NCBI RefSeq assembly: GCF_030814995.1
Contig: NZ_JAUSVX010000033.1
Span: 1 to 55,318, forward strand
Direction of reading: 5' to 3'
Source: Labrys wisconsinensis
Lineage (GTDB): Bacteria; Pseudomonadota; Alphaproteobacteria; Rhizobiales; Labraceae
Length of the DNA stretch: 55,318 nucleotides
This document shows positions 20,252 to 50,902 of the stretch, one piece after another; position 1 is the stretch's first letter, and each line of letters starts with the position of its first letter. A program made the translations under genes and the position numbers. Under the pieces are notes generated by a model. It had not been told where the DNA came from, did not search any database, and was given only the letters and a program-made list of their open reading frames with translations.

Positions 20252-20269
20252 TACAAAAACGTTTCTATA
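20252..20269. promoter_or_regulatory. LacI-type operator a
   Basis: TACAAAAACGTTTCTATA, one mismatch to the 18-bp island consensus. Centre 235 bases from the amidase start and 63 bases from operator b (about six helical turns), so a looped pair bound by a LacI-family tetramer or two dimers is conceivable. Confidence 0.8.
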
Positions 20270-20314
20270 TAAAGACACTCTTGGTAATTTTCCATTCCGT
20301 TTGCCTTGCAATTT

Positions 20315-20332
20315 TATAGAAACGTTTTTATA
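20315..20332. promoter_or_regulatory. LacI-type operator b
   Basis: TATAGAAACGTTTTTATA; the reverse complement matches the consensus perfectly. It lies between TTGCAA and TATACG of the putative promoter for the MalE-type operon, 57 bases before the start codon. Occupancy should block RNA polymerase directly. Confidence 0.85.
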
Positions 20333-20380
20333 CGATCCGACACACCCTTGGCAAGAGGGGTTGAAAAGAGGGGACGACAC

Positions 20381-21694
20381 ATGCGTGCTGGAATGCTGGC
20401 GATAACCGGGCTCTTCGCAGCCCTGACGACCATGGCGATCGGCGCGGCGGCCGGGCAGGCGGCGAGCGCTCCGCCTCCGGTGGAGCTGGTCCTGTGGCAC
20501 CAGGAGACGCCGCCCAACCGGGTGAAGCGCTACCAGGAGATCATCGACCGCTTCAACCAGACGCACCCGACCATCCGGGTGCGCCAGGAGGTGCAGGACT
20601 GGAGCACCATCTTCACCGTGGCCCCCGCCGCCATCGGCAGCGGCACGGGCCCGGACATCCTGATGACGATGCCCGAGCTCGCGACCTATGTCCGGGCGAC
20701 CGGCGCGGTCCAGCCGGTCACCGGACTGGTGAAGCAGCTCGACGGCAAGTACCACTTCCTCCCGGCCGCCACCGATCCCTATTTCGATCAGGGGCAATAC
20801 TGGGGCGTGCCGCTGTGGGGCATGGTCCAGCTGCTCTGGTATCGCAAGAGCGCCTTCGAGACGGCGGGCATCGCCAGGCCGCCGGCGACCTGGGAGGAGG
20901 TGCTGGCCGACGCGGCGAAGCTGACCGGCGGCGAGCGCTACGGCATCACCTTGCCCGCCTCGAAGACGACGGCGACCGACCAGACCTTCTTCTCGTTCCT
21001 GAAGACCTACCGCGGCGAGGACCTGTTCGACGCCAAGGGCGAGCCGGCGTTCGACAACCCCAATGCGGTCAAGGCGGTCGACACCTATACCCGGCTGCTG
21101 CGCTACGCCGCCCCCGACAGCACCAACTATGCCTGGGGCGAGCCCGAGGCGGCCTTCAACAGCGGCTCCGCCGCCATGCTGGTGGACAAGGGCATCATGC
21201 TGAGCGTCTATCTGCGGGACTCCGGCGCCCCCGCCGGCGATCTCGGCTGCGCGCCCATTCCCCAGCCGGCCGAAGGCGGCCAGCCCGGCAGCCACTACGC
21301 CTCCAACGCGGCGATGATCCTGACGTCGGATCCGGCCAAGCAGGAAGCCGCCGGCGCGTTCATCACCTATCTCCTGCAGCCGGACGTCTACGGGCCGCTG
21401 CTGAACGCGGAGCCGGGCCTGTTCCTGCCCGTGACGCGGGACGGCTTCGGGCTGTCGTCGTGGCTGAGCGAGCCGGCGCTCACGACCTGGCCGGAGTGCA
21501 CGCGGCTCCTGGCGCAGCAATCCCTGTCCGGCGGCCTCTACGGGTTCACCTCCGGTCGCTACCAGATCAAGATCGGGCCGATCGCCGGCCAGAACATCAT
21601 CGCGCAGGTCATCCAGAAGGTCGTGATCGACAAGGTGAGCCCCGCCGAGGCGGTCAAATGGGGGCAGGAGCAGATGGAAGCCGCGGTCAAGTAG
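20381..21694 (+). CDS. MalE-type sugar ABC transporter substrate-binding protein
   Basis: A 437-residue periplasmic binding protein of the extracellular family 1 group. Signal peptide: MRAG, a hydrophobic core to about residue 25, and cleavage near QAASA (residue 30). The mature start PVELVLWHQETPPNRVKRY and the segments FNQTHPTIRVRQEVQDWS and GSGTGPDILMTMPELATYV are typical of oligosaccharide or glycoside binders. Start ATG 20381 follows AGAGGGG. It is the first gene of a three-gene unit with two permeases (21775-23540) and is separated from them by a GC-rich stem-loop. It is directly under LacI-type operator b. Ligand not predictable; the island context suggests an amide-bearing sugar-like compound. 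Confidence 0.9.
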   Translation: MRAGMLAITGLFAALTTMAIGAAAGQAASAPPPVELVLWHQETPPNRVKRYQEIIDRFNQTHPTIRVRQEVQDWSTIFTVAPAAIGSGTGPDILMTMPELATYVRATGAVQPVTGLVKQLDGKYHFLPAATDPYFDQGQYWGVPLWGMVQLLWYRKSAFETAGIARPPATWEEVLADAAKLTGGERYGITLPASKTTATDQTFFSFLKTYRGEDLFDAKGEPAFDNPNAVKAVDTYTRLLRYAAPDSTNYAWGEPEAAFNSGSAAMLVDKGIMLSVYLRDSGAPAGDLGCAPIPQPAEGGQPGSHYASNAAMILTSDPAKQEAAGAFITYLLQPDVYGPLLNAEPGLFLPVTRDGFGLSSWLSEPALTTWPECTRLLAQQSLSGGLYGFTSGRYQIKIGPIAGQNIIAQVIQKVVIDKVSPAEAVKWGQEQMEAAVK

Positions 21695-21706
21695 CCGCCG
21701 GACCGG

Positions 21707-21730
21707 GGCGCGGCCGCGACCGGCCGCGCC
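21707..21730 (+). repeat. Intercistronic stem-loop after the MalE-type gene
   Basis: Perfect arms GGCGCGGCCG (21707-21716) and CGGCCGCGCC (21721-21730), loop CGAC, between the binding-protein stop and the first permease. Same position as the hairpins after the binding-protein genes ending at 12878 and 38324. Probably protects the upstream message or limits read-through. Confidence 0.6.
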
Positions 21731-21774
21731 TCGCTGCCACCACGCACCCGCACGACCACAGGAATTCCCGCTCG

Positions 21775-22710
21775 ATGACCGCAGCAACCACCGCGCCCGC
21801 GCATCTCCAGGGGTGGCGCCGGCGATCCCGGCACGCCTTGCGGCGTGCCTATGCGCCGCTGATCGGCTACGCGCTCCTCGCGCCGCTGGTGCTCTGGATG
21901 CTCGTGGTCCTGGTGTATCCCATCGGCAACCTCCTGGCCCTGAGCCTGACCGACACCAGGATCGTCGGCGCGCCGAGCGCCTTCGTCGGCCTCGACAACT
22001 ACCAGGCGACGCTGCTGTCGGCTCGCTTCTGGAGCGCGGTGCAGCGCTCGATCGTCTGGCTGCTCGGCAATGTCGTCCTCGGCACCGTCGTGGCTTTCGC
22101 CGCCGCCCTGCTCCTGCGCCAGAGCTGGCGTCCGGCGCAGCAGGCCCGCGTCTGGATCCTCCTGCCCTGGGTCATTCCGACCGTCGCCGTCGCGGTGATC
22201 TGGCAATGGATGCTGAACGCCAATTACGGCGTGATCAACTTCGTGCTGACGGCGCTGGACGTGATCGCCGCCCCGCTGAACGTGTTCGGCAGCAAGGAGC
22301 TCACCATGGCGGGCACGATCATCGCCAACACCTGGCACTGGTTCCCGCTGTCGGCGGTCGTCATCTTCGGGGCGATGCAGAACATCCCGCAGGAACTCTA
22401 CGAGGCCGCCAGGCTCGACGGCGCCAGCGCCTGGGCCCAGTTCCGCTTCATCACCCTCCCGGCCACCGCCAAGACGATGTTCGCCCTCGGCCTGGTGGGC
22501 GGGCTGTGGACCCTCAACGTCTTCGACACGATCTATCTCGTCACGCGCGGCGGGCCGGCCGACGCCACGCTGACCCTGCCCGTCCTGATCTACGAGACCG
22601 CGTTCAAGGGCCTGCGCATCGGCCAGGCCGCGGCGATGAGCGTCGTCGCGATCGGCCTGCTCGCCGCCCTGGCAACGGCCTATGCCAGGCTCATGGCGCC
22701 CAAGGAGTGA
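21775..22710 (+). CDS. MalF-type sugar ABC transporter permease
   Basis: A 311-residue inner-membrane protein with about six transmembrane segments. The first follows a basic tail (residues about 28-50, LIGYALLAPLVLWMLVVLVY). The EAA coupling loop reads IPQELYEAARLDGASAWAQF near residue 205-225 and ends with the expected FRFITLPA. It pairs with the next gene to form the channel. Start ATG 21775 has AGGAA about 10 bases upstream. Its stop overlaps the AAGGAG ribosome site region of the following permease, so translation is coupled. No dedicated ATPase gene of the MalK type is found in this operon or anywhere in the window; a shared ATPase elsewhere is required. Confidence 0.93.
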   Translation: MTAATTAPAHLQGWRRRSRHALRRAYAPLIGYALLAPLVLWMLVVLVYPIGNLLALSLTDTRIVGAPSAFVGLDNYQATLLSARFWSAVQRSIVWLLGNVVLGTVVAFAAALLLRQSWRPAQQARVWILLPWVIPTVAVAVIWQWMLNANYGVINFVLTALDVIAAPLNVFGSKELTMAGTIIANTWHWFPLSAVVIFGAMQNIPQELYEAARLDGASAWAQFRFITLPATAKTMFALGLVGGLWTLNVFDTIYLVTRGGPADATLTLPVLIYETAFKGLRIGQAAAMSVVAIGLLAALATAYARLMAPKE

Positions 22711-22715
22711 TGCCG

Positions 22716-23540
22716 ATGACGCTGTCCCATCACCTCTCGCGCTGGCTGGTCTGGCTGGTGCTCGTCGCGGTCGTCGTCGGCCCGATCTACTGGATCGTCG
22801 CAGCCTCGTTCAAGGACAACCACGAGATCATCCAGCGCGTGCCGTCGCTGTGGCCGGCACGCATCCATCTCGGCAATTACGACGAGCTGCTCTCCAACAC
22901 GAATTACCCGACCTATCTCCTCAACAGCCTGATCGTGGCGCTCTGCACCATGGCGGCCACCGCCTGCATCACCATCGCCGCGGGCTATGCGATGTACAGG
23001 CTCAAGGTTGCGGGCTCGACCTGGCTGAGCCGCGCCATGCTGCTGATCTACCTGGCGCCGACGACGCTCCTGCTGGTGCCGATCTACTCGCTGCTGGCGT
23101 CGATGCGCCTCGTCAACACGCTGGCCGGCCTGGTGATCGTCAATGTCGCCTTCGCCTCGCCCTTCTGCGTCTGGCTGCTGCGGGGCTTCTTCGACGCGAT
23201 CCCGCGGGCTCTGGACGAGGCGGCGGCCGTCGACGGCGCCGGCCCCCTCACCATCCTGTGGAAGGTCCACCTGCCGCTGCTCGCCCCGGGGCTCGGGACG
23301 ATCCTGCTCTACGCCTTCGTCTATTCCTGGACGGAGTTCGCCTTCGCCTCCCAGCTCATCGTCAACGACAGCCTCAAGACCCTGCCGATGGGCCTGAACG
23401 CCATCATGGGCTCCTACACCATCAACTGGGGCCTGCTGATGGCCGGCGCCTCCCTGACCACGCTGCCGGCCGTGCTGCTGTTCGCCTGCGTCGGCCGCTA
23501 CTTCGTGCGCGGCCTCACCGCGGGCGCGGTCACGGGCTGA
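22716..23540 (+). CDS. MalG-type sugar ABC transporter permease
   Basis: A 274-residue inner-membrane permease with about six hydrophobic segments. The EAA loop IPRALDEAAAVDGAGPLTIL (about residues 160-180) is followed by WKVHLPLLAPG, which is diagnostic for the second half of MalFG pairs. Of two ATG codons, 22716 is chosen because AAGGAG (22702-22707) lies eight bases before it; 22710 would overlap the previous stop as ATGA but is only two bases from the site. It forms the channel with the upstream permease. It ends 58 bases before the convergent CoA-transferase pair, with a strong hairpin between them. Confidence 0.93.
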   Translation: MTLSHHLSRWLVWLVLVAVVVGPIYWIVAASFKDNHEIIQRVPSLWPARIHLGNYDELLSNTNYPTYLLNSLIVALCTMAATACITIAAGYAMYRLKVAGSTWLSRAMLLIYLAPTTLLLVPIYSLLASMRLVNTLAGLVIVNVAFASPFCVWLLRGFFDAIPRALDEAAAVDGAGPLTILWKVHLPLLAPGLGTILLYAFVYSWTEFAFASQLIVNDSLKTLPMGLNAIMGSYTINWGLLMAGASLTTLPAVLLFACVGRYFVRGLTAGAVTG

Positions 23541-23598: not shown

Positions 23599-24417
23599 TC
23601 ACGCGGCGAGCAGGATCCGGCGCGGATCGATCTCGGCGCGGATGAGCCGGAGCTCCTCCGCCGTCGGCTCCGGCGTCACCGGCACGCCGGAGAGGTCGCC
23701 GAGGTCGAAGCCGGTCGCAGCCTGCAGCTCGGCCGGCGTGACGCCAGGATGGATCGAGCGCACCGTCATGCGGCCGCCGGCCTTGTCGAAGTCGAACACG
23801 CATCGCGGCGTGAGCACGAGCTCCGGCCCACCGCGCTCGATGCCGAGCCGGCGCCGGCCCTCGATGCCGCCGGGATAGCCGACGCCGGAGACATAGTCGA
23901 CACGCTCGACGAAGTTGCGGGCCTCGTGCGAGGGCATCATCACGTATTCGCGCCCGAACAGGGTCATGTGCTCGGGCTGCAGGATCGGTCCGACCAGCCG
24001 CACCCTGGGCTTGCGGTAGGGCCCGACGCAGACGCTGTTGATGTTGCCCTCGCGGTCGACCTGCACCGCGCTGCTGAAGCCGAAGGAGACGTCGCCGCGC
24101 TTGAGCACCCAGGGCCCGGGATAGCCGAGCATCTGCGCCTCCGCCGGCAGATCGCGCAGCTCGGCGCTGTGCTCCGAATCCGGCAGCGCCTCGAGATCGC
24201 GCAGATCGGGATTGTGATAGCAGCCGGCCAGCAGGATGGTCAGGTTGGGCGCATGCGTGCGCCGCGCCAGCTCCATGGCGACGAGCGGGATGGCGGTGCC
24301 GAAGACCGCCGCCGCCGAGCCGGTGAGGAGGCCGGTGAACCCCACCTCCGCATCGGCGAAATCGCGCGCCAGCAGCACGGCGAGGCGTTCGTGCAGGGTT
24401 GCAGGCCTGTCGGTCAT
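23599..24417 (-). CDS. Class I CoA-transferase-fold protein, beta subunit (pair 1)
   Basis: A 272-residue subunit with the GctB-like fold. VGFTGLLTGSAAAVFGTAIP and VAMELARRTHAPNLTILLAG open the domain, and GYPGGIEGRRRLG, RCVFDFD, RMTVRSIHPG and EIDPRRILL follow in the usual order. In glutaconate CoA-transferase the strand after RxxAP ends with the catalytic glutamate (VESG); here the corresponding stretch reads LLAGC, so that Glu seems absent. Enzymes with this loss, such as IpdAB, act as hydrolases rather than transferases. The start ATG 24417 overlaps the alpha-subunit stop by ATGA, so the two are made together. Cytoplasmic; acts on a carboxylate or its CoA thioester. Reaction not assigned. 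Confidence 0.85.
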   Translation of the reverse strand: MTDRPATLHERLAVLLARDFADAEVGFTGLLTGSAAAVFGTAIPLVAMELARRTHAPNLTILLAGCYHNPDLRDLEALPDSEHSAELRDLPAEAQMLGYPGPWVLKRGDVSFGFSSAVQVDREGNINSVCVGPYRKPRVRLVGPILQPEHMTLFGREYVMMPSHEARNFVERVDYVSGVGYPGGIEGRRRLGIERGGPELVLTPRCVFDFDKAGGRMTVRSIHPGVTPAELQAATGFDLGDLSGVPVTPEPTAEELRLIRAEIDPRRILLAA

Positions 24418-25316
24418 AGCAGGGAATCCAGATCCTGGAGGGCGGCGAGCCGCTCGGCCCCGAAGAGGTCGAGATAGGCATAGTGGTCGCGCGGGGCATG
24501 CACGAAGGTATCGAGATAGGCCGCGAAGGCGCCGGCATCGCCCGAGGCCGCCACGTAGTCGTCCATATGCCGCTCGTCGGCGAGATAGCGGCCGAGCGTC
24601 GGCGTCGGATGCGCGCCGAACGGCACCTCGACGATCGCCGTCGTGCGATAGGAGGGGATCTCCACCAGGCGCGCGTGCCGGCGGATGAAGGCCCTGGACA
24701 CGATCTTCTCGGCCGTGACGATCACCACGTCGCAGCTGCGGGCGACCTGGATGTCGGCGCTCTGCGGAAAGAGCCGCCGGGCCGGGATGACCACGTTGCC
24801 CTGCTCGTCGGCGGCGACCGCATGGATCACCGCGACCTTGGCGCCGGCGGCCGGCACGGCATGCATCGGCCGGCCGGTGATCGGGCAGGCCATCGGCCGG
24901 ATGTCGGGGTTGTACGTCACCACGTCGTTGCCGCCCAGGAACGGCACCGGCCAGAAGGCCAGGCCCTCCTGGTCGGCGCGGAAGCGGTCGAGGCTGACGA
25001 GCTCGGGATAGTCCACCACCTCGAGCGCTCCCGCCTCGGCGGCCCGGCGGAAATTGCGCGCCAGCCCGTGCTTCTCCAGCCCGACATAGGAGGTCTCGAC
25101 GCGTGCCAGGCAGCCGGCGCCGGCCAGCATGTCGACGTCGCAGGAATGTGCCGAGCCGACCACCGTCAGCTCGCGCCGCCGCTGGCGCACCAGTTCGCGC
25201 ACGAACGCCATCGGCTTCTGGTAGACGGCAAAGCCCCCCAGCGCCAGGCGCGTCCCGTCGGGAACGAGCCCTGCGGCCTCGGCGAGCGTGATCCGTTTCG
25301 ACGTGAGCGCCGGCAT
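24414..25316 (-). CDS. Class I CoA-transferase-fold protein, alpha subunit (pair 1)
   Basis: A 300-residue GctA-like subunit. The N-terminal RITLAEAAGLVPDGTRLALGG is the typical glycine-rich CoA-binding start, and the body contains HAVAADEQGNVV and CDVVIVTAEKIVS, which are diagnostic. It forms a heteromer with the beta protein encoded immediately downstream (ATGA overlap). The start is uncertain: ATG codons at 25316 and 25325 and a GTG at 25343 are all near a GGGATGGG stretch; 25316 was chosen because it starts one codon cluster before the conserved region. A LacI-type operator is centred 66 bases upstream (25374-25391). The gene diverges from the cupin-aldehyde dehydrogenase operon. Confidence 0.85.
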   Translation of the reverse strand: MPALTSKRITLAEAAGLVPDGTRLALGGFAVYQKPMAFVRELVRQRRRELTVVGSAHSCDVDMLAGAGCLARVETSYVGLEKHGLARNFRRAAEAGALEVVDYPELVSLDRFRADQEGLAFWPVPFLGGNDVVTYNPDIRPMACPITGRPMHAVPAAGAKVAVIHAVAADEQGNVVIPARRLFPQSADIQVARSCDVVIVTAEKIVSRAFIRRHARLVEIPSYRTTAIVEVPFGAHPTPTLGRYLADERHMDDYVAASGDAGAFAAYLDTFVHAPRDHYAYLDLFGAERLAALQDLDSLL

Positions 25317-25373
25317 GTCGGGCATCCCATCCCAAAGCTGCACCCGATCCGGCCCAGGCCCGTCGATCTGCGC

Positions 25374-25391
25374 AATAAAAACGTTTCTATA
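25374..25391. promoter_or_regulatory. LacI-type operator c
   Basis: AATAAAAACGTTTCTATA, one mismatch to consensus, 66 bases upstream of the first CoA-transferase pair. The surrounding gap 25317-25665 (349 bp) holds this site, operator d and no credible gene. Confidence 0.85.
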
Positions 25392-25539: not shown

Positions 25540-25557
25540 TATAGAAACGTTTTTATA
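25540..25557. promoter_or_regulatory. LacI-type operator d
   Basis: TATAGAAACGTTTTTATA (reverse-oriented perfect match to the consensus), 117 bases before the cupin gene. It falls between a possible TTGCAC (25530-25535) and TATATG (25554-25559), spacing 18, so it overlaps the likely plus-strand promoter. Confidence 0.85.
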
Positions 25558-25665: not shown

Positions 25666-26064
25666 ATGCCCGACACCAACCTGAAGCCTGCAACCAACGT
25701 CTTCACGGCCGATGCCGTGGCGTCCCGGAAGGGGCCGTCCGAGATCTATTCCGGCGACGTGACGATCAACACGCTGGCGATTGCCGAGAAGCCGGGACTG
25801 CTGGTCGTCAACCGGGTCCTGTTCGCGCCGAATTCCCGCACGGTCTGGCACACCCATCCCAATGGCCAGGTGCTGCACTGCATCCTCGGTGTCGGCGAGT
25901 TCCAGCGCGAGGGCGAGGAGATCGTCATGCTGATGCCGGGCGACACCGTGCTGATCCAGCCCAACGAACGCCATTGGCATGGCGCCGCGGCCAACCAGGC
26001 CTTCGTCCACCTCGCCATCAACGCCGACAACGACCCGGTCTGGCACGAGCCGGTGGTCCGCTAG
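25666..26064 (+). CDS. Small cupin-domain protein
   Basis: A 132-residue single-domain cupin. The metal-binding motif 1 reads WHTHPNGQVLHCILG, giving the H-x-H pair and a Gln in place of the usual Glu. Motif 2 has PGDTVLIQPNERHWHG, giving the third His. Such small cupins act as metal-dependent isomerases, dioxygenases or lyases, or as binding proteins; the fold alone does not decide. Start ATG 25666 follows GAAGAGG. It heads the operon with the aldehyde dehydrogenase and sugar isomerase-like genes and is controlled from operator d. The last base of its stop codon is the first base of a perfect 16-bp hairpin (26064-26115). Confidence 0.85.
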   Translation: MPDTNLKPATNVFTADAVASRKGPSEIYSGDVTINTLAIAEKPGLLVVNRVLFAPNSRTVWHTHPNGQVLHCILGVGEFQREGEEIVMLMPGDTVLIQPNERHWHGAAANQAFVHLAINADNDPVWHEPVVR

Positions 26065-26115
26065 TGTTGTGCTTCCGACGCTTTGCTCCCGACCATTGTG
26101 TCGGAAGCACAACAC
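26064..26115 (+). repeat. Perfect 16-bp inverted repeat overlapping the cupin stop codon
   Basis: Arms GTGTTGTGCTTCCGAC (26064-26079) and GTCGGAAGCACAACAC (26100-26115) are exact complements around a 20-base loop. It starts with the last base of the cupin TAG codon. There is no T-run. It could be an mRNA-stabilising or attenuating hairpin, or a copy of a small dispersed palindromic element. Only one copy is seen in this window. Confidence 0.7.
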
Positions 26116-26304
26116 AAAGCCTTGAACCAACCCGGAACACGAGAGCGTCGGGGGCGCGCAAGCCCCTGCCGCGCCGCCCGTCCGGCGGCCGTCCGCATCG
26201 AAGTCCAAGCAAGGCTCATGGGCCAGGGCGGGCGCTCCGGCCCACGGCACCCTGCCGCGTGCCCGCCCCCGGGGCCGGCCGCGGCGCAACATCTGGGAGG
26301 CACC

Positions 26305-27804
26305 ATGAAGATCGACGTGACCAGGCCCGAGCTCGGGGCGGCGGCAGCCGCCTTCCTCGCCCGGCCGCACAAGCTCCTGATCGACGGCCAATGGGCCGAG
26401 GCGCGCAACGGCGCGACGATCGATGTCGAGGATCCGGCGACGGAGGAGATCATCGCCACCATCCAGGGCGGTGACGAGGCCGACATCGACCGCGCCGTCG
26501 CCGCGGCCCGCCGCGCCTTCGAATCCGGCCCCTGGCCGCGGACCAGCGCCGCCGATCGTTCGCGGCTGCTCTGGCGCCTCGCCGACCTTCTGGAGCGGCA
26601 CGCCGAGGAGCTGGCGGAACTCGAGGCGCTCGACGTCGGCAAGCCGCTGAGCAAGGCCAGGACCGACGACATCCCCGACGCGATCAGCGTCTTCCGCTAT
26701 TTCTCGGGCGCGCCGACGCGCCTCACCGGCGAGACGATCCCGGTGTCGAGCGCCGGCGACTTCCACGCCTATACGCTGCGCGAGCCGGTCGGCGTGGTCG
26801 GGCAGATCATTCCCTGGAACTATCCGCTGATCATGGCCTCCTGGAAGGTCGCCCCAGCCCTCGCGGCGGGCTGCACCATCGTGCTCAAGCCGGCGGAGCA
26901 GACGTCCCTCACGGCGCTGCGCCTGGGCGAGCTCGCGCTGGAAGCCGGCGTGCCACCCGGCGTGTTCAACGTGGTCACCGGCCTCGGCGAACGCGCCGGC
27001 GCGGCGCTCGCCGCGCACCCGGACGTCGACAAGATCGCCTTCACCGGCTCGACCGCCATCGGCAAGCGCATCGTCCAGGCCGCCATCGGCAACCTGAAAC
27101 GGGTCTCGCTGGAGCTCGGCGGCAAGTCGCCGGCCATCATCTTCCCCGATGCCGACCTCGACCACGCCATTGCGGGCGCGGCCGACGCCATCTTCTACAA
27201 CCAGGGCCAGACCTGCACCGCCGGCTCGCGCCTCTTCGCGCACAAGTCGATCTACGACCGGGTGATCGACGGCGTCGCCGGCGCTGCCGGCAGGCTCACG
27301 CTCGGCCACGGCCTCGACCCGCGCGTCACCCTCGGCCCGCTGGTGTCGCGCAGGCAGCACCAGCGCGTCGCCGGCTATCTCGAATCCGGTCGCAGCGAGG
27401 GCGCTGAGGTCGTCACCGGCGGCCGGGCCGTGGGCCATCGCGGCTATTTCATCGAGCCGACGGTGCTCGCCCGCACCGACCGCACCATGACGGTGGTGCG
27501 GGAGGAGATCTTCGGACCCGTGGTCTGCGTCCAGTCCTATGACGACGAGGATCTCGACGCCATCGCCCGCTTCGCCAACGACACGATCTACGGCCTGCGC
27601 GCCAGCGTCTGGACCCGGGACCTGCGGGTGGCCCACCTGATGGCCCGCAAGATGAAGGCCGGCGGCATCGGCATCAACTGCCACAACTATGCCGAGCCCT
27701 CATGGCCCTTCGGCGGCTTCAAGCAGTCCGGCTGGGGCCGCGAGCTCGGCAAGGATGCGCTCGAGCTCTACACCGAGACCAAGTCGGTCGCCGCCCGGCT
27801 CTGA
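26305..27804 (+). CDS. NAD(P)-dependent aldehyde dehydrogenase
   Basis: A 499-residue aldehyde dehydrogenase of the classical superfamily. The NAD-binding region has PWNYPLIMASWK (N172) and FTGSTAIG; the general base is E270 in LELGGKSP, and the nucleophile is C304 in NQGQTCTAGSR. The C-terminal EIFGPVVCVQSY and PFGGFKQSGWGRELG are also intact. It oxidises an aldehyde to a carboxylic acid in the cytoplasm. The start at 26305 has GGGAGG and yields the normal length; a longer frame from 26083 would cross the hairpin and is rejected. It is the second gene of the cupin operon. The acid product could be the substrate for the CoA-transferase-fold enzymes of the island (inference). Confidence 0.95.
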   Translation: MKIDVTRPELGAAAAAFLARPHKLLIDGQWAEARNGATIDVEDPATEEIIATIQGGDEADIDRAVAAARRAFESGPWPRTSAADRSRLLWRLADLLERHAEELAELEALDVGKPLSKARTDDIPDAISVFRYFSGAPTRLTGETIPVSSAGDFHAYTLREPVGVVGQIIPWNYPLIMASWKVAPALAAGCTIVLKPAEQTSLTALRLGELALEAGVPPGVFNVVTGLGERAGAALAAHPDVDKIAFTGSTAIGKRIVQAAIGNLKRVSLELGGKSPAIIFPDADLDHAIAGAADAIFYNQGQTCTAGSRLFAHKSIYDRVIDGVAGAAGRLTLGHGLDPRVTLGPLVSRRQHQRVAGYLESGRSEGAEVVTGGRAVGHRGYFIEPTVLARTDRTMTVVREEIFGPVVCVQSYDDEDLDAIARFANDTIYGLRASVWTRDLRVAHLMARKMKAGGIGINCHNYAEPSWPFGGFKQSGWGRELGKDALELYTETKSVAARL

Positions 27805-27842: not shown

Positions 27843-27900
27843 TCCCGCGGCGGCGGCGCAGCGCGCCGCACCCCGTCCGATCCCGACAATGGAACGCCCC

Positions 27901-34065: not shown

Positions 34066-34193
34066 GGTGTTCTCCTCTGTGGTTTTCTTGCCTGTGCGGC
34101 GGCATCGGGATGCCGGCCGCGCCGTCGGCTGCCCGGGAGCCGTTGCCGACCGCGGACATACCGAGCGTTCCTTGTCGGAGCCAGATAATGGCA

Positions 34194-38239: not shown

Positions 38240-38261
38240 GTCCGCTTCCACATCGTCCTGT

Positions 38262-39495: not shown

Positions 39496-39525
39496 ATTAA
39501 AAACGTTTCTGAAAACGTTTTTATA
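39496..39525. promoter_or_regulatory. Overlapping double LacI-type operator f1/f2
   Basis: Site f1 (39496-39513) starts ATTAAAAACGTTTCTGA. Site f2 (39508-39525) is reverse-oriented and ends GTTTTTATA. The centres are 12 bp apart, strong halves outward, as in e1/e2. They lie upstream of the BMP-type operon, in the 263-bp space between that operon and the end of the LacI gene. Confidence 0.82.
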
Positions 39526-44182: not shown

Positions 44183-45397
44183 CTACACGACGCCGCGCGC
44201 CTTCAGGGTTTCGATCTCGCCGGGTGCGAGCGCCAGCCAGCGGTCGAGCACCTCGCCGCTATGCTCGCCGAGCCGCGGCGGCGGCCGGCGTATCGCCGTC
44301 GGCGTCTCGCTCATCCGGATCGGGGAGGCCTGCATCGGCAGGTCGCCGACGCTCGGGTGGCGCACATGCGCGATATGGCCGGCTTCGGTCATGTAGGGGT
44401 CCGCGACGATGTCGGCGACGGTGGCGATCTTGGCGCAGGTCACCTCCGCCTCGCGCATGAGGGCGACGATCTCCTCCGCCTCGTGCCGGGCGACGAACTC
44501 CGCGACGATCTCCTCGATCGCGGCGGTGTTGGCCATGCGCGCCTGCAGGGTGGAGAAGCGTTCGTCCTCCAGGAGGTCGAGGCGCCCCATGATGCGGGCG
44601 AGGCGCGGAAAATGCGCATCGTTGCCGGCGATGAGATAGACCCACTCGCCGTTGCGGTCGCGGAAGGTCTGGGCCGGCGCCGAATAGCGGTCGCGATTGC
44701 CGACGCGGTTCATCGTCCGTCCGAGCAGCAGCTGCTCGGGGATCGCCGTCATCATCAGCGACACGCCCGAGCCCACCAGGCTGACGTCGACGAGCTGCCC
44801 CTCCCCGCTCTTGTGGCGCTGCTCGAGGGCGGACAGGATGCCGATGGTCGCATAGAGGGACGTGGTATAGTCGACCATGAAGGTGCCGGTCATGGCCGGC
44901 GCGCCGGCGGGATCGCCGGTGATGGACATCAGCCCGCTCGTCGCCTGGGCGATGGCATCGAAGCAGGGTTCCGCGGACCGGCTGCCCGTCTGCCCGAAGC
45001 CGGAAATCCGCGCCATGATCAGGCGCGGGTTGAGCGCGTGAACCTCGTCCCAGCCGAGGCCCATGCGCTCCATGGTGCCGGGGCGGAAGTTCTCGATCAG
45101 CACGTCCGCCTCCGCCACCAGCCGGCGCAGCAGGGCCTGCGCCTCGGGATTGCGGAAGTCGAGCGTCAGGCTCTGCTTGTTGCGGTTGAAGACGAGGAAA
45201 TAGAGGCTCTCCCCGTTCACCTCCGGCGCCAGCGCGCGCACGTCGTCTCCCAGCCTGGCGCGCTCGACCTTGACGACCTCGGCCCCGAGATCGCCCAGGA
45301 CCATGCCGCAATGCGGACCTGCGATGAAGCGGGAGAGATCGAGAACCTTGAGGCCGGCAAGTGCGCCCGGTGACGCGGCATTCGCAGTGGTGGTCAC
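44183..45397 (-). CDS. Class III CoA-transferase (CaiB/BaiF, formyl-CoA transferase-like)
   Basis: A 404-residue family III CoA-transferase. Visible marks: VLDLSRFIAGPHCGMVLGDL, GAEVVKVER, the region NRNKQSLTLDFRNPE, LIENFRPGTMERMGL, and the catalytic Asp D176 in TFMVDYTTSLYA. It moves CoA between carboxylic acids through an aspartyl-CoA anhydride. The start is a GTG at 45397 with AGGAA about eight bases upstream; an ATG at 45427 would add ten residues and has no ribosome site. First gene of the unit that continues with the ThDP enzyme, DhaK, DhaL and perhaps LacI. Operator g lies 191 bases upstream. Confidence 0.92.
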   Translation of the reverse strand: MTTTANAASPGALAGLKVLDLSRFIAGPHCGMVLGDLGAEVVKVERARLGDDVRALAPEVNGESLYFLVFNRNKQSLTLDFRNPEAQALLRRLVAEADVLIENFRPGTMERMGLGWDEVHALNPRLIMARISGFGQTGSRSAEPCFDAIAQATSGLMSITGDPAGAPAMTGTFMVDYTTSLYATIGILSALEQRHKSGEGQLVDVSLVGSGVSLMMTAIPEQLLLGRTMNRVGNRDRYSAPAQTFRDRNGEWVYLIAGNDAHFPRLARIMGRLDLLEDERFSTLQARMANTAAIEEIVAEFVARHEAEEIVALMREAEVTCAKIATVADIVADPYMTEAGHIAHVRHPSVGDLPMQASPIRMSETPTAIRRPPPRLGEHSGEVLDRWLALAPGEIETLKARGVV

Positions 45398-45579
45398 AAT
45401 GTGTTCCTGCAACAACGAGAGGAGCATTCGGGCCGTGTTCCCGAGGAAACGCCGCCGGCGATCGAGCACAAACCCCGGCGCGCCCCGCCGGCCGCGACGA
45501 TCGTCGTCTCCACGGCCCGAAGAGCCGGATGCGCCCCTCTCAGCACTCGATTTTCGAGCACAGCCTGCCATCAACTGGC

Positions 45580-45597
45580 AATAGAAACGTTTTTATA
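45580..45597. promoter_or_regulatory. LacI-type operator g
   Basis: AATAGAAACGTTTTTATA, reverse-oriented, one mismatch to consensus. It lies between the second CoA-transferase-fold pair (ends 45646) and the class III CoA-transferase start, so it probably controls the latter. Confidence 0.83.
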
Positions 45598-45645: not shown

Positions 45646-46443
45646 CTAGACCTTGAGCAGGATGCGATTGGGATCGATCGTCTCGCGGATCAGGGCCAGC
45701 TGATGCGCGTCGGGCGCGGCGGTCCGCGGGACATGGTCGGGAATGACGGGCGTGAGGGACATGCTGTCGAGCACCTCGGCGACCTCGACGCCCGGGTGGA
45801 GCGAGCGCAGCCGCATGCGGCGGTCCGGCGTCTCGAAATCGAAGATGGCCTTGTCGGTGACCACGCGCTGCGGCCCGCCGGCGCCGAGGCCCCACTCTTC
45901 GCGGGTGCGCCCGTCGCGGGCATGGCCGACGCTGGTGACGAAGTCGACCTTCTCCACGAAGCTGCGCCTGGACAGATCCATCATCACGATCGGGCGCCGC
46001 ACGAAGGCGAAGTGCTCGGGCTGGGCGAGGCAGCCGACGAGCCGCACCCTCGGCGTCTCGTAGTCGCCGATCGCGGTGATGTTGAGATTGCCGAAGGCGT
46101 CGATCTGCGCGCCGGAATCGAAGGACACGTCGAAGCCGCGGCGCATCAGCATGTCGCATTTGTAGCCGACGTCGACCGGGCTGGCCGCGGCGGGCCAGCG
46201 CGTCAGGCTGTCCTGGCGCAGATTGGCGGGAAAGGTGGAGAGGTCGGGCTCCAAGAGGTTGCCCCAGTAGACGGAGGCCGACGGCGCGTGGGTGAGCTGG
46301 GCGAGCCGCAAGGCGGCGAGAGGGATGCCGACCGCCAGCGTGAAGGCGCGGCCGTTGGTGCCGACGCCGACGAAGACCAGGTCCCCGTCCGCGATCGTCG
46401 CGGCGACCTCGGCGGTGACGAGCTCGTTAAGGGTATGGGTCAT
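45646..46443 (-). CDS. Class I CoA-transferase-fold protein, beta subunit (pair 2)
   Basis: A 265-residue GctB-like subunit, homologous to the protein at 23599-24417 but diverged. DGDLVFVGVGTNGRAFTLAV and LAQLTHAPSASVYWGNLL lead, then GAQIDAFGNLNITAIGDY (very close to GctB), FVEKVDFVTSVGH, RVVTDKAIFDFE and ETIDPNRILLKV. The strand where GctB has its catalytic Glu reads VYWGNL, so Glu is replaced by Gly in my alignment. The start ATG 46443 overlaps the alpha stop by ATGA. It forms a heteromer with the upstream alpha subunit. Loss of Glu in both pairs suggests a chemistry other than CoA transfer. Confidence 0.87.
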   Translation of the reverse strand: MTHTLNELVTAEVAATIADGDLVFVGVGTNGRAFTLAVGIPLAALRLAQLTHAPSASVYWGNLLEPDLSTFPANLRQDSLTRWPAAASPVDVGYKCDMLMRRGFDVSFDSGAQIDAFGNLNITAIGDYETPRVRLVGCLAQPEHFAFVRRPIVMMDLSRRSFVEKVDFVTSVGHARDGRTREEWGLGAGGPQRVVTDKAIFDFETPDRRMRLRSLHPGVEVAEVLDSMSLTPVIPDHVPRTAAPDAHQLALIRETIDPNRILLKV

Positions 46444-47342
46444 CGGCCGCCCTCCTCGCGCGCGACGTCGAGCGCCGCCAGCGCCGCGAGGCCGCCGACC
46501 TTCGCCAGGTAGTCCTCGTGCGTGGGCGCGCCGTGGACGAAGTCCCGCAGATAGGCCCGGGCGCCGGCCTCCGTGCCGGAGGATGCGAGATAGTCGGCGA
46601 GATGCGCCTCGTCCTCGTCGTAGAAGCCGTCGACCGCAGAGGGATGCGCCCCATAGGGCACCTCGACGATCGCCTCGACCTGGAAGCCGGGAATATAGGT
46701 GAGCGCCGGACGCCGCTTGACCGCATCGTGCGGGATGATCTTCTCCACGGTGACGATCAGGCGCTCGGCCGCCGCCGCCATCATCTGGTCGACATCGTCG
46801 CTGTCGCGCACGATCGGCCACTGCACATTGCCGAACTCGTCGCCGACATAGCCGTGGATGATGGTGAAGTCGGCCTTGGCCGCGGCCACCGCCAGCAGCC
46901 GCTCCCCGCTGATCGGGCAGGCATATTCGCGGATCTGCTCGGGGTTCTTCAAAGCGATGTCCGAGCCGAACAGGGTCTTGATCGGCAGGGAAGGCAACCC
47001 CTGCCCGGCCGCCCGCAGCCGCGCCACCATCGCGGTCTCCGAGAAGTCGCGCACCTCGATCCTGCCGCTCTCGACCCCGCGCCGGAAGTTCGGCGCCAGC
47101 CCGAGGCTGAACATCCCGGCATAGATGCCCTCCCAGCGGCGGACCGCGCCCGCCGCGCTGAGCAGGTCGATCGCCGTGGTGTTCGCCCAGGTGAGCACGG
47201 TCAGGTCCCCGATGCCGCGCCGGATCAGCGCGCGCATGGCGGCATTAGGCTGGCGGCGCAGCAGCGATCCGCCGATCGCCAGCGTGCAGCCGGACCGGAT
47301 GGGCTCCAGCGCCTCCTCCAGCGTCGCAAGCTTCTTCTTCAT
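46440..47342 (-). CDS. Class I CoA-transferase-fold protein, alpha subunit (pair 2)
   Basis: A 300-residue GctA-like subunit. The N-terminus MKKKLATLEEALEPIRSG leads to the glycine-rich CoA-binding strand CTLAIGGSL. HGYVGDEFGNVQWP and ERLIVTVEKIIPHDAVKR are typical of the family. The start ATG 47342 is preceded by AGGAT; the longer frame begins inside the operator and is rejected. It is the first gene of a two-gene unit with the beta subunit, and operator h is centred 72 bases upstream. It is a distant paralogue of the alpha subunit at 24414 and probably acts at another step of the same pathway. Confidence 0.88.
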   Translation of the reverse strand: MKKKLATLEEALEPIRSGCTLAIGGSLLRRQPNAAMRALIRRGIGDLTVLTWANTTAIDLLSAAGAVRRWEGIYAGMFSLGLAPNFRRGVESGRIEVRDFSETAMVARLRAAGQGLPSLPIKTLFGSDIALKNPEQIREYACPISGERLLAVAAAKADFTIIHGYVGDEFGNVQWPIVRDSDDVDQMMAAAAERLIVTVEKIIPHDAVKRRPALTYIPGFQVEAIVEVPYGAHPSAVDGFYDEDEAHLADYLASSGTEAGARAYLRDFVHGAPTHEDYLAKVGGLAALAALDVAREEGGR

Positions 47343-47405
47343 CGGGCCACATCCTGACCTTACCAGACCACCCGCTCGCCCGATCCACGGGCTGGGCGAG
47401 CGAGC

Positions 47406-47423
47406 AATAAAAACGTTTTTGTA
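47406..47423. promoter_or_regulatory. LacI-type operator h
   Basis: AATAAAAACGTTTTTGTA, 72 bases upstream of the second CoA-transferase-fold pair. A perfect TTGACA for the minus strand lies at 47444-47439, upstream of the site. The gap 47343-47729 (387 bp) contains this site and operator i; I see no gene in it. Confidence 0.82.
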
Positions 47424-47549
47424 TGCTTGCCCCACGCCTGTCAAGCATCGCAGCCGCTTTTTTTGACAAGTGCCGCATCGGGCCGGCCGCAGGTGCCGCG
47501 CTGCCCTGCCGAATTTTGCGGCACCCCATTGCGCGCCGCAGAAAACCTA

Positions 47550-47567
47550 TATAAAAACGTTTCTATA
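47550..47567. promoter_or_regulatory. LacI-type operator i
   Basis: TATAAAAACGTTTCTATA, identical to the consensus. It lies 172 bases upstream of the plus-strand dehydrogenase-cyclase-amidase unit and 137 bases from operator h. Confidence 0.87.
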
Positions 47568-47729
47568 GGCCCATGGGCCATGGATCGTCGAAAATTCCAT
47601 TCGCACCGGCGCGCTGCCGAGCGGGTTTCGCCGCGGGGTGGCCGGAGATGTTGCAGCCTTTCCCCCTGGCAGGCAACCCGGCTCGAATGGCAGCTCACGA
47701 GATCCGGCCCGCAATCGAGAAGGTATCCG

Positions 47730-48641
47730 GTGGTGAGCAGCCAAACCCGTTCTGTTGGATTTATCGGTCTCGGCAATATGGGACGCCCGATGGCGGCCAA
47801 CCTGGCACGCGCCGGCTTCAGGGTCGTGGCCGGCGACGTCGATGCCGCGCGCAGCCGGGATTTCGCCGCCGAGTTCGCCGATGCGGCGGCGGCGGACGGG
47901 CCGGCTTCGTTCCGGGAGGTCGACGCGCTCGTGACCATGCTTCCCAACGGCAAGGTCGTCCGCCAGGCCCTGCTCGACGGCGGCATCGCCGACGTGCTGC
48001 GGCCGGGCACGGTGGTGATCGAGGCGAGCTCCTCCGACCCCTTCGACACCCAGGGCCTCGGCAGGGATCTGTCGGCCAAGGGCATTCTCCTGGTCGATTC
48101 GCCGGTTTCCGGCGGCATGGCCAAGGCGCTCGACGCCACCCTGTCGATCATGCTGGGGGCCGACGACGAGGCGGCGGCCGAGCGGGCCGTCCCCGTGCTG
48201 AAGGCGATGAGCGCCCGCATCTTCCGCACCGGCGGGCTCGGCACCGGGCACGCGATGAAGGCGCTCAACAATTTCGTGCTGGGCGCCGGCTTCGTGGCCG
48301 CCGCCGAAGCCCTGGTCGCCGGCGGCAAGTTCGGCCTCGATCCCAAAGTGATGGTCGACGTGCTGAACGCCTCGTCGGGCCGCAACGTCAGCACCGAGAC
48401 CACGATGGTGACCGAGATCCTGCCGCGGCGTTTCGCCGCCAACTTCACCCTCGCCCTGTTCTCTAAGGACGTCGGCATCGCCTCGAGCCTGAGCGAGAAC
48501 CTCGGCATCGATTCGCCCCTCTGCCGCACCGTGTTCGAGCGCCTCGCCGATGCCGGCGCGGCGCTGGGCTGGCAGGCGGACTACACCACGGCGCTGCAGC
48601 TCTGGGAGAGCCGTGCCGGCATCGAGCTGCCGGCGCGCTGA
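47730..48641 (+). CDS. Beta-hydroxyacid dehydrogenase (HIBADH/GarR family)
   Basis: A 303-residue NAD(P)-dependent 3-hydroxyacid dehydrogenase. The Rossmann motif GFIGLGNMGRPMAANLARAG starts near residue 10. Substrate-binding DSPVSGGMAKAL (near 120) and the catalytic Lys in GTGHAMKALNNF (near 170) are intact. Members oxidise 3-hydroxyisobutyrate, tartronate semialdehyde and similar compounds. The start is set at GTG 47730 because GAGAAGG lies seven bases before; the adjacent GTG 47733 is equally possible. A longer open frame upstream crosses operator i and is rejected. First gene of a three-gene unit with a cyclase-family hydrolase and amidase C. Confidence 0.9.
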   Translation: MVSSQTRSVGFIGLGNMGRPMAANLARAGFRVVAGDVDAARSRDFAAEFADAAAADGPASFREVDALVTMLPNGKVVRQALLDGGIADVLRPGTVVIEASSSDPFDTQGLGRDLSAKGILLVDSPVSGGMAKALDATLSIMLGADDEAAAERAVPVLKAMSARIFRTGGLGTGHAMKALNNFVLGAGFVAAAEALVAGGKFGLDPKVMVDVLNASSGRNVSTETTMVTEILPRRFAANFTLALFSKDVGIASSLSENLGIDSPLCRTVFERLADAGAALGWQADYTTALQLWESRAGIELPAR

Positions 48642-48695: not shown

Positions 48696-49415
48696 ATGGA
48701 ATTCGTCGATCTCAGCCGCGAGCTCTTTCACCGGGCGCAGATCCATCCGAGCCAGCCGCCCGTCAACATCAATGTCTGGACCGATCATTCCGAAAAGATC
48801 ACGATCGGGCGGACGACGCACAGCTCCCGGTCGCTGAGCATCGCCTTCAGCGATCACGCGGGAACCCATGTCGATGCGCCGGTCCATTTCGACCCGCGCC
48901 CCGGCGCCGCATCCATTGACGAGCTGCCGCTCGAGAACTTCTACACCTCCGGCATCTGCCTCGACCTGTCGCACGTGCCGCTGAAGCACGCCGTGACCGT
49001 TCCGGAGATGCAGGAGGCCCTTTCCCGCTCCGGCCAGGAGATCAGGCCGGGAGACACCGTGCTCTTGTGGATGGCGGTCAATCAGCGGCTGCTCGGCCAG
49101 CCGGGCTACGAGCACGACTTTCCCGGCCTCGGGCCGGAGGCCGTGCATTGGCTGGCGGATTTCGGCATCAACCAGTTCGGCGTCGAGGCCGTCAGCCCCG
49201 CCCCGGCGGGCGAGCTCAACCTTCTCGCCCACATGATCTGTGCCGAGCGGGGCATCACCCATATCGAGTGCATGGCCAATCTGGACAGGCTGATCGGCCG
49301 CGGACGCTTCCGCTTCGTCGGCTTTCCCCTGAAGATCCGCGGCGGCACGGCGGGGCCGATGCGGGCCGTGGCCATCTTCGACGAGGCGCCCGCCGCGGTC
49401 GGAGGCACCGCGTGA
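48696..49415 (+). CDS. Cyclase-family metal-dependent hydrolase (kynurenine formamidase-like)
   Basis: A 239-residue protein of the cyclase/KynB superfamily. The metal motif HxGTHxDxPxH is intact as DHAGTHVDAPVHF (about residues 54-66). The second region GVEAVSPAPAG follows, and the C-terminal half has THIECMANLDRLIGRGRFRF. Members hydrolyse formamides, cyclic amides or lactones (KynB, isatin hydrolase, and others). The start ATG 48696 follows GAAGGAT. It is 54 bases after the dehydrogenase, and its stop overlaps the GTG of amidase C (GTGA). Two amide- or ring-opening hydrolases are thus made in coupled fashion. The likely task is opening of a cyclic or N-acyl intermediate (inference). Confidence 0.87.
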   Translation: MEFVDLSRELFHRAQIHPSQPPVNINVWTDHSEKITIGRTTHSSRSLSIAFSDHAGTHVDAPVHFDPRPGAASIDELPLENFYTSGICLDLSHVPLKHAVTVPEMQEALSRSGQEIRPGDTVLLWMAVNQRLLGQPGYEHDFPGLGPEAVHWLADFGINQFGVEAVSPAPAGELNLLAHMICAERGITHIECMANLDRLIGRGRFRFVGFPLKIRGGTAGPMRAVAIFDEAPAAVGGTA

Positions 49416-50821
49416 CCCGCCCCTTGTGGACGCTGGGCGCTCGCGGCCTGTCCGAGCGGCTGGCCACCGGGACGATGACCCCGCTGGCGGTGCTCGACGA
49501 CCTCCTCGACCGTCACGACCGGCTCGCGCCCGCGCTCAACGCCTTCACCCATCTCGATCGCGACGGCGCGCGGCGCGACGCCGAGGAGGCGACGAAGCGC
49601 TCGCGAGCCGGCCGCCGGCGCGGCCCCCTCGACGGCATCCCCGTCGCCGTGAAGGACAACATCTTCGTCAAGGGCATGCCGGCGCGCTATGGCAGCCTCC
49701 TGCTCCGGGACCATGTTGCCGATGTCGACGACATCTGCATCGAGCGCCTGCGCGCGGCCGGCGCGATCATCGTCGGCAAGACCACGACGCCGGAATTCGC
49801 CCTGTCCGGGCGCACCGAGAGCCGGCTCAGCGGCAGCACCCGCAACCCCTGGGACACGGCGCTCACCGCCGGCGGCTCCAGCGGCGGCTCGGTGGCCGCG
49901 GTCGCGGCCGGCATCGTGCCCCTGGCCCTCGGGACGGATGCCGGCGGATCCACGCGCATGCCGGCGAGCTACAACGGGCTGCTGGGCCTGCGCCCCTCCA
50001 ACGGCCGGATCCCGCGGCGCCACGGCTTTCCGCCGATGTCGCTGGACTTCCAGGTCATCGGCCTGCTCGCACGCACGGTCGACGATCTCGGGCTGCTCTA
50101 CGGCGCCCTGGCGGGCCCCGACCCGCGCGATCCCCAGTCATGCCGGCTTCCGGCCGAACGGATGACAGCGCCGCGCCTGCGGATCGGCTGGTTCGCGGCG
50201 GTGGAGGACATCCGCCCGGACGATGCGGTGCTGGCGGCGCTGGACGACGTGCGCCGAGGGCTGGCGGACCTCGGCCACGACATCATTCCCCGCGAGCCCC
50301 CCTATCGGCCCTCGCAGCTGCAGCCGATCTGGGACACGCTGACCGCGGCCGGCGCGGCGCGGATGGCGGCCCGTTTTCCCGACCGCTGGCAGGCGGAGAT
50401 GAACGACAACGTCGCCGATCTGGCGCGCCGGGGCATGGCGCTTCCGGCCGCCGCCTATGTCGAGGCCCTGGACGCGCTGTCGGCGTTGCGCGCCTCGGTT
50501 GCCGAGGCGTGGGGCGATGTCGACGCATTCCTGCTCCCGACGGCACCGGCGCCCGCCTGGCCGGCCGGAGAGCCACATCCCCGGACCATCGGCGGCCGCC
50601 CCGGCAGCGTCGCCGGCCAAGGGGTCTTCTGCGGCTGGGTCAATGCCCTGGGCCTGCCGGCCCTCAACATTCCCGCCGGCCGCCATCCCGACGGACGGCC
50701 GGTCGGGGTGCAGATCGTGGCGCGGTTCGCGGCCGAGGCCGATCTGTTCCGGCTCGCGGCCGGCCTGGAGCCCGCCCTGCAATGGGCGGGATCATGGCCG
50801 GCCCTGGCGGAGACCGTCTGA
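49412..50821 (+). CDS. Amidase-signature family hydrolase (copy C of three)
   Basis: A 469-residue amidase with triad K81 in VAVKDN, S156 in TAGGSSGGS and S180 in GTDAGGSTRMPA. The start is GTG 49412 in a GTGA overlap with the cyclase stop and is backed by GGAGG at 49400-49404. It is encoded with the cyclase and the hydroxyacid dehydrogenase under operator i. It differs from copies A and B through much of its length, especially after residue 220. Having three distinct amidases in one regulon suggests either several related substrates or a substrate with more than one amide-like bond. Confidence 0.93.
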   Translation: MTRPLWTLGARGLSERLATGTMTPLAVLDDLLDRHDRLAPALNAFTHLDRDGARRDAEEATKRSRAGRRRGPLDGIPVAVKDNIFVKGMPARYGSLLLRDHVADVDDICIERLRAAGAIIVGKTTTPEFALSGRTESRLSGSTRNPWDTALTAGGSSGGSVAAVAAGIVPLALGTDAGGSTRMPASYNGLLGLRPSNGRIPRRHGFPPMSLDFQVIGLLARTVDDLGLLYGALAGPDPRDPQSCRLPAERMTAPRLRIGWFAAVEDIRPDDAVLAALDDVRRGLADLGHDIIPREPPYRPSQLQPIWDTLTAAGAARMAARFPDRWQAEMNDNVADLARRGMALPAAAYVEALDALSALRASVAEAWGDVDAFLLPTAPAPAWPAGEPHPRTIGGRPGSVAGQGVFCGWVNALGLPALNIPAGRHPDGRPVGVQIVARFAAEADLFRLAAGLEPALQWAGSWPALAETV

Positions 50822-50884
50822 TTCCCGTCGGGCCGGGCAATCCGCTCGAGTCGCTCTTCAACCTTGCGCTGTCGCGAAACTCCA

Positions 50885-50902
50885 TATAAAAACGTTTCTA
50901 TA
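50885..50902. promoter_or_regulatory. LacI-type operator j
   Basis: TATAAAAACGTTTCTATA, identical to the consensus. It lies 79 bases upstream of the SnoaL-like gene in the 150-bp gap after amidase C. Confidence 0.87.

Follow-up and report, generated by a model that had tools for sequence, protein, structure and literature searches.

Twelve near-identical operators point to a single LacI-family regulon across a 34-kb catabolic island of Labrys wisconsinensis

The closest described systems to the locus analysed here are the local LacI-family regulons of sugar catabolism. In the parts of the survey by Ravcheev et al. (2014; PMC4052901) on which we draw, 93% of LacI regulons contain at most 20 genes, 31% of the regulators control a single operon and 38% control two, 72% are autoregulated, pairs of sites show a spacing peak at 13 bp, and a regulon is counted as global above 15 genes and from seven operons upwards. 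We analysed a stretch of 55,318 nucleotides from Labrys wisconsinensis (the entire contig NZ_JAUSVX010000033.1, C33 in our numbering; referred to as the window), which has a G+C content of 69% and belongs to a genome of 8,926,997 bp in 55 contigs. The window contains a 34-kb island of ten predicted transcription units, preceded by 12 copies of an 18-bp sequence. The sequence evidence makes us highly confident that the LacI-family protein whose gene lies at 39613-40635 has these 18-mers as its operators and that the ten units form one dedicated regulon.

The core AAACGTTT was found in the window at exactly 12 places. These were the 12 positions at which an earlier reading of the letters alone (the sequence-only reading) had put LacI-type operators, and its statement that there are no copies outside the island range was borne out by the same scan. 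When up to three mismatches were allowed, the 18-mer matched 10 of the 12 places in the window (19 matches, with both strands counted) and was never matched in 100 shuffled controls; the two missed sites, 34194 and 39496, are the more divergent halves of double operators. A matrix built from the 12 sites scored them at 30.2-39.7 and the next best place in the window at 7.2, a comparison that is partly circular because the matrix was derived from the same sites. Four sites (20315, 25540, 47550 and 50885) are identical, two in each orientation. All 12 sites are centred on CG with imperfect arms, and thus show the even palindrome with a central CG that is typical of LacI-family operators. They are asymmetric rather than perfect palindromes: by hand count, one arm carries A and the other G in nine of the 12. 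A fixed orientation of this asymmetry was considered and dropped, as G lies upstream in five of the nine and A in four. The sites are arranged as eight single operators and two overlapping doubles:

20252-20269: operator of the amidase unit (18616-20118, minus strand)
20315-20332: operator of the importer 1 unit (20306-23540, plus strand; solute-binding protein and two permeases)
25374-25391: operator of the unit of CoA-transferase-fold pair 1 (25343-23599, minus strand); TTGACA 32 bp upstream
25540-25557: operator of the cupin, aldehyde dehydrogenase and TIM-barrel unit (plus strand)
34194-34224: double overlapping operator (starts 34194 and 34207, centres 13 bp apart) of the importer 2 and amidase unit (minus strand)
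39496-39525: double overlapping operator (starts 39496 and 39508, centres 12 bp apart) of the BMP-type importer 3 unit (minus strand); TTGACA 29 bp upstream
45580-45597: operator of the class-III CoA-transferase, thiamine diphosphate (TPP) enzyme, DhaK, DhaL and LacI unit (minus strand); autoregulation predicted
47406-47423: operator of the unit of CoA-transferase-fold pair 2 (minus strand); TTGACA 21 bp upstream
47550-47567: operator of the dehydrogenase, cyclase and amidase unit (plus strand)
50885-50902: operator of the SnoaL-like and aldo-keto reductase unit (plus strand)

By the predicted gene models, each of the ten units between 18616 and 52407 has its operator upstream, which upholds the proposed one-to-one match of sites and units. 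All 12 sites lie outside the gene models, though the models cover 92% of the island and only 7.7% is non-coding. Some mechanically called open reading frames (ORFs) extend upstream over sites; conserved starts and ribosome-binding sites, judged by eye, place the true starts downstream of them.

The genome scan that the sequence-only reading had proposed was carried out with patterns instead of a matrix, and all strong matches fell in the island. With up to three mismatches, TATARAAACGTTTYTATA occurred at 11 places in the whole genome, every one on C33; the only one of the 12 sites absent from this set was 39496, which carries four mismatches. TATARAAACGTTTYTATA read backwards gave two places in the same genome. 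The bare core RAAACGTTTY was present at 18 places, the 12 in the window and six elsewhere. The six have other arms, with the TATA arms not in register. The LacI gene at C2:251688 has two of them upstream and that at C28:8431 has one; by coordinates, no LacI gene of the 43 found in the genome lies within 15 kb of the other three. Equally strong sites at many unrelated genes were not seen across the genome. The strong sites are instead confined to one locus that also holds a regulator, as expected of a local LacI regulon.

Near-identical copies could also be produced by a small dispersed repeat with no operator function. By eye, the flanks of the copies look unrelated beyond 18 bp, which indicates that the sites are not copies of a longer repeat. 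In addition, all of them avoid the gene models and fall one operator to a unit, no 18-mer match was found elsewhere in the genome, and the core is present in related loci, as described below. Placement and relatives thus contradict a dispersed repeat; we rejected it and give it next to no credence.

The LacI gene at 39613-40635 is the only one of the LacI-type genes found that falls in the window, in line with the statement that the sole LacI gene of the window lies in the island. Its product has a helix-turn-helix (HTH) domain (PF00356, 34.7 bits; cut-off 27) and a periplasmic-binding-protein-like domain (PF13377, 122.7 bits). The genome has at least 43 LacI-type HTH genes (150 of 160 candidates scored), and near-identical operators stand beside an unrelated LacI type in other genomes (see below). 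It could therefore be argued that one or two of the paralogues bind the 12 sites, and that the targets of the island LacI, if there are any, lie elsewhere. The HTH domains of the paralogues were aligned with a hidden Markov model, 41 of the 42 together and the last one separately. The island protein has the recognition residues L-S-N, at positions that we take to correspond to Tyr17, Gln18 and Arg22 of LacI. This triple was found in none of the 42 other LacI genes, and the I-A-K triple of the unrelated type was absent among the 43 found in this genome. The core was near only two of the 42 paralogues, with other arms, and 40 had no core nearby (for 30 of the 42 the scan took in the 400 bp in front of the HTH codons, and 12 were checked by coordinates). 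Relatives of the island LacI, moreover, carry the core along with them. Binding by other paralogues consequently seems very improbable to us. Because the relatives carry the core, the recognition residues are unique in the genome and the paralogues mostly lack a core, the sites were assigned to the island LacI. As a prediction from sequence, the single dedicated LacI regulon put forward by the sequence-only reading is well supported.

Among 397 genomes of the order, five (L. wisconsinensis included) have a relative of this LacI. Relatives with 53-68% identity were found in nine named genomes, from Rhizobium, Faunimonas, Shinella, Pelagibacterium, Mesorhizobium, Alsobacter, Bradyrhizobium, Microvirga and Skermanella. 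One entry (G249) proved, by equal length and content, to be the same Faunimonas contig as locus L026 and was dropped, leaving 12 distinct loci with a LacI of 51-68% identity. The recognition triple is L-S-N in seven of these and V-S-N in five; a second Faunimonas LacI copy has P-S-N. RAAACGTTTY occurred at 39 places across the 12 loci, compared with 0.45 in shuffled sequence, and at least once in 11 of them. It lay within 300 bp upstream of the lacI match in 9 of the 12 loci but at only 2 of the 42 paralogues (Fisher p = 2e-6, a value that overstates independence since the 12 loci are related to one another; the comparison rests on the core, which other LacI proteins also bind). A site pattern retained with LacI orthologues, here at nine of 12 loci, is likewise what a local regulon should show. 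Three plasmid loci outside the 12, L095, L096 and L098, also have the core upstream of a LacI relative (62.9%, 45% and 56% identity, respectively). Two to four LacI paralogues each, and core sites with varying arms, were seen in L095 (Microvirga sp. VF16 plasmid), L098 (Shinella) and L026 (Faunimonas), which suggests repressor duplication within related islands.

We propose the following mechanism. The island LacI would bind as a dimer at each of the ten promoters of the contiguous 34-kb cluster and repress by occupying each promoter in the region of its -10 box and transcription start. The imported substrate, or an early intermediate, would act as inducer and release the repressor, so that all three importers would be induced together with about 15 enzymes and the operon of the repressor itself. 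Repression with autoregulation is the likely mode; autoregulation is predicted because lacI is the last gene in the unit behind the operator at 45580. The sequences show the sites, their pairing with predicted units, their confinement to this locus and the return of core, repressor and parts of the cassette in relatives; from these we infer that the protein binds, that it represses and does not activate, that an inducer releases it, and where the units begin and end. At 3 of the 10 promoters (25374, 39508 and 47406), TTGACA lies 21-32 bp upstream of the operator, and the operator would thus cover the -10 box and the start, as expected for repression. Three promoters have a -35/-10 pair that exceeds 95% of shuffled upstream sequence, namely 25374, 34207 and 47406 (fractions of 0.04, 0.01 and 0.00 against shuffles); the idea that an operator arm itself forms the -10 box was weakly supported by this count and was not adopted. 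The island LacI could instead be an activator or a dual regulator at some of the ten promoters. The position of the operator relative to the -35 box varies, and the part of PMC4052901 used here mentions a LacI-family activator of gluconeogenesis and tricarboxylic acid cycle genes, taken as PckR of Rhizobiales. Where TTGACA was found, however, the operator sits over the -10 box and the start, and we consider activation or dual action unlikely.

Several observations weigh against the proposed mechanism and assignment. Only 3 of the 10 promoters stand out from shuffled sequence, with 39508 at 0.21 and the other six at 0.48-0.73. Among the relatives, L026, L079 and L080 have no core just upstream of lacI, and L080 (LacI 51%) has no core at all; the TATA arms are kept only partly; and some related loci hold extra LacI paralogues, to which a share of the 39 sites may belong. 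Three genomes, G001, G002 and G137, have AATAAAAACGTTTTTATT or AATAAAAACGTTTTTATA, and G072 has the close variant CATAAAAACGTTTTTATC, in each case beside a LacI of another type, which has the triple I-A-K and is 27-29% identical to the island LacI where measured. Since a near-identical operator occurs at an unrelated LacI type, the operator sequence alone does not name the regulator, nor does it mark a single lineage. Matches with up to two mismatches were also found in 10 other genomes, and their fate was followed in eight (all but G090 and G093). In G094 the match lies about 5 kb from the genome's own LacI orthologue, G001, G002 and G072 represent the I-A-K type, and in G054, G059, G078 and G086 the surroundings of the matches looked at (two of three in G086), out to about 1.5 kb, showed no LacI HTH. 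Stray weak sites therefore exist in relatives. At one mismatch or fewer, matches were limited to 3 of the 397 genomes of the order, L. wisconsinensis, G094 and G137. As a separate observation, L075, L076, L081 and L101, which have the I-A-K type of LacI, each pair the near-identical operator with a second core site 21 bp away.

The island comprises 29 genes: 10 for transport, one regulator and 18 polypeptides that form about 15 enzymes, a figure that includes the cupin and the SnoaL-like protein as putative enzymes. Genes were called from reading frames and third-position G+C and named with Pfam and NCBIfam; start codons were chosen by eye from ribosome-binding sites and conserved starts, and the unit boundaries are predictions.

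18616-20118, minus: amidase 1 (PF01425)
20306-21694, plus: solute-binding protein 1 (SBP_bac_1); translation probably begins near 20381
21766-22710, plus: permease of importer 1 (BPD_transp_1)
22713-23540, plus: permease of importer 1 (BPD_transp_1)
23599-24417, minus: CoA-transferase-fold pair 1, beta subunit (PF01144 barely above cut-off, 23.7 against 23 bits); catalytic Glu lost (LLAGCYHNPD)
24414-25343, minus: CoA-transferase-fold pair 1, alpha subunit (PF01144)
25666-26064, plus: cupin
26083-27804, plus: aldehyde dehydrogenase
27889-28728, plus: xylose-isomerase-like TIM barrel (below the Pfam cut-off)
28749-30179, minus: amidase 2
30389-31474, minus: permease of importer 2 (BPD_transp_2)
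31474-33018, minus: ATPase of importer 2
33022-34251, minus: solute-binding protein 2 (Peripla_BP_4); translation probably begins near 34110
34285-35562, minus: permease of importer 3 (BPD_transp_2)
35559-36737, minus: permease of importer 3 (BPD_transp_2)
36734-38284, minus: ATPase of importer 3
38324-39349, minus: BMP/PnrA-type solute-binding protein 3
39613-40635, minus: LacI-family repressor (predicted), recognition residues L-S-N; the ORF opens at 40704, conserved start 40635
40694-41338, minus: DhaL-like kinase subunit
41335-42333, minus: DhaK-like subunit; retains the residue that aligns with His218 of E. coli DhaK
42371-44146, minus: TPP enzyme, NCBIfam PRK06112 subfamily
44183-45574, minus: class-III CoA-transferase; aspartate aligned with SUGCT
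45646-46446, minus: CoA-transferase-fold pair 2, beta subunit; W at the catalytic Glu position (YWGNLLEPD)
46440-47444, minus: CoA-transferase-fold pair 2, alpha subunit
47427-48641, plus: dehydrogenase resembling 3-hydroxyisobutyrate dehydrogenase and tartronate-semialdehyde reductase; true start near 47729
48696-49415, plus: cyclase-family hydrolase
49460-50821, plus: amidase 3 (start uncertain)
50864-51370, plus: DUF4440/SnoaL-like protein; true start near 50990
51394-52407, plus: aldo-keto reductase

Three importers and at least 15 enzymes had been read from the island. Three importers and about 15 enzymes were indeed recovered, except that the unit of importer 1 (20.3-23.5 kb) lacks an ATPase gene. 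This importer (20306-23540) consists of a binding protein and two permeases, and the only ATPase genes found in the island belong to importers 2 and 3. Further binding proteins, two in number, and an ATP-binding cassette (ABC) ATPase are encoded to the left of 18.6 kb, where no site was found. Within the importer 2 unit, about 210 bp separate the permease from the amidase.

Both class-I pairs of the island matched 1poi, 6co6/6con and 5mzw (glutaconate CoA-transferase and related structures), of which those other than glutaconate CoA-transferase are, we assume, IpdAB and AibAB. The pairs thus resemble GctAB, IpdAB and AibAB. Unlike GctAB, they both lack the glutamate of GctB that we take to be catalytic. 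At this position the beta subunit of pair 1 showed a gap in direct alignment and an A (AGCYHNPD) when aligned to relatives with ESG, and that of pair 2 has a W (WGNLLEPD); the beta-subunit glutamate expected of a class-I CoA-transferase is therefore absent from both. The glutamate-less motifs, or close variants, recur in related islands, and 6 of the 15 related loci scanned (L025, L026, L030, L031, L077 and L095) have an additional pair with an intact ESG. IpdAB and AibAB are family members that are not known to act as transferases. Because the catalytic glutamate is missing, the two island pairs, although of class-I "CoA-transferase" sequence, are probably not transferases, and there is a hint that they may be hydrolases or decarboxylases.

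The remaining catabolic enzymes were compared with families and structures in the same way. In the DhaK-like subunit, the His of IHGEPGI aligned with E. coli DhaK His218, presumably the substrate-binding histidine, and the protein scored 382 bits against TIGR02363 of NCBIfam (cut-off 406). The class-III CoA-transferase aligned with SUGCT over 392 residues and kept an aspartate that we assume to be catalytic; it also matched formyl-CoA transferases, and it scored below the formyl-CoA transferase cut-off (279 against 442). With NCBIfam PRK06112 the TPP enzyme reached 927 bits (cut-off 673); the 25 of 52 matches listed contained no oxalyl-CoA decarboxylase family. Against structures it scored 206 bits with acetolactate synthase and up to 173 with oxalyl-CoA decarboxylase or 2-hydroxyacyl-CoA lyase, values too close to decide between them. 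Given the PRK06112 match and the class-III score below the formyl-CoA transferase cut-off, an oxalate (Frc/Oxc) pathway was not favoured. For an apiose pathway, nothing fitting appeared among the literature matches listed. On the one S. meliloti plasmid inspected, a relative of the TPP enzyme with 69% identity has a different setting, together with genes for shikimate dehydrogenase and a branched-chain ABC system, so the substrate range of this enzyme may be broader. Contig C10 of the L. wisconsinensis genome carries a second copy of the TPP enzyme with 63% identity.

Parts of the cassette recur beside the LacI relatives. The survey covered 14.7-21 kb per locus, and an absence may mean that a gene was out of reach. 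A complete CoA-transferase-fold pair 2, the class-III CoA-transferase, the TPP enzyme, DhaK and DhaL occurred together at 5 of the 12 loci (L027, L028, L029, L032 and L080). Taken singly, a close TPP enzyme was present at 10 loci (not L026 or L031), a close class-III enzyme at 10 (not L025 or L026), a close pair 2 at nine (not L025, L033 or L079) and the DhaKL pair at eight (not L026, L030, L031 or L077); at L026 only CoA-transferase-fold pairs and transport genes were seen. TPP enzyme, DhaKL and class-III genes stood together near a LacI relative at 7 of the 12 loci and at the three plasmid loci. In the literature searched, no description of this combination was found, judged by title among the matches listed.

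The gene content of the island looks coherent and may serve a single catabolic pathway; dihydroxyacetone, via DhaKL, is the likely exit. A tentative scheme, which we regard as possible but doubtful, is an undescribed route in which the class-III CoA-transferase would activate an acid made by the amidases and dehydrogenases, the glutamate-less pairs would work not as transferases but as C-C hydrolases or decarboxylases, and dihydroxyacetone would then be split off by the TPP enzyme and phosphorylated by DhaKL.

A second catabolic-looking cluster lies at 3283-18353, with luciferase-like monooxygenases, an acyl-CoA dehydrogenase-like protein and parts of an ABC importer; the window scan for AAACGTTT found none of the operators there. 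At the right end of the contig is a transposase-like (DDE) gene (54485-55198). Four further genomes of the genus were searched at E <= 1e-90 and the island LacI was found in none, which fits gain by transfer.

The near-identical operators at ten contiguous promoters define by sequence alone which genes probably work together. They provide a bounded gene list for a catabolic pathway that is shared in part by several alphaproteobacterial genera. Two enzyme pairs that annotation would label CoA-transferases are flagged as probably something else. The cluster looks like one switchable metabolic unit, its interest lying in the pathway that the regulon delimits, and the inducer of a single repressor would offer a simple route to the pathway substrate.

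By sequence, the nearest solved proteins to the island LacI are RbsR, CcpA and PurR, the ribose repressor 9ny7 (E 1.8e-53) among them. Unlike these, the island protein falls far below the NCBIfam equivalog cut-offs (RbsR, CcpA, CytR and PurR compared; best RbsR, 205 bits against 531), and its operator has TATA arms. We take the PurR operator core to be AAACGTTT as well, and the recognition residues of PurR presumably differ from those of the island LacI. A literature search for the operator core gave, among the matches listed, none on this group by title. Compared with the local LacI regulons of sugar catabolism, as portrayed in the sections of PMC4052901 cited above, the island shares the even palindrome with a central CG, sites upstream of starts, overlapping pairs whose spacing of 12-13 bp matches the peak for LacI-family pairs, clustered targets and predicted autoregulation. 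It differs from them in that about 29 genes, arranged in 10 units, are gathered in a single place. The regulon is large for a local one, and its gene and operon numbers exceed the limits for a global regulon given there; despite this size, its targets form one cluster and probably one pathway. The predicted regulon is thus new and unusually large, but of a known type, the local LacI regulon.

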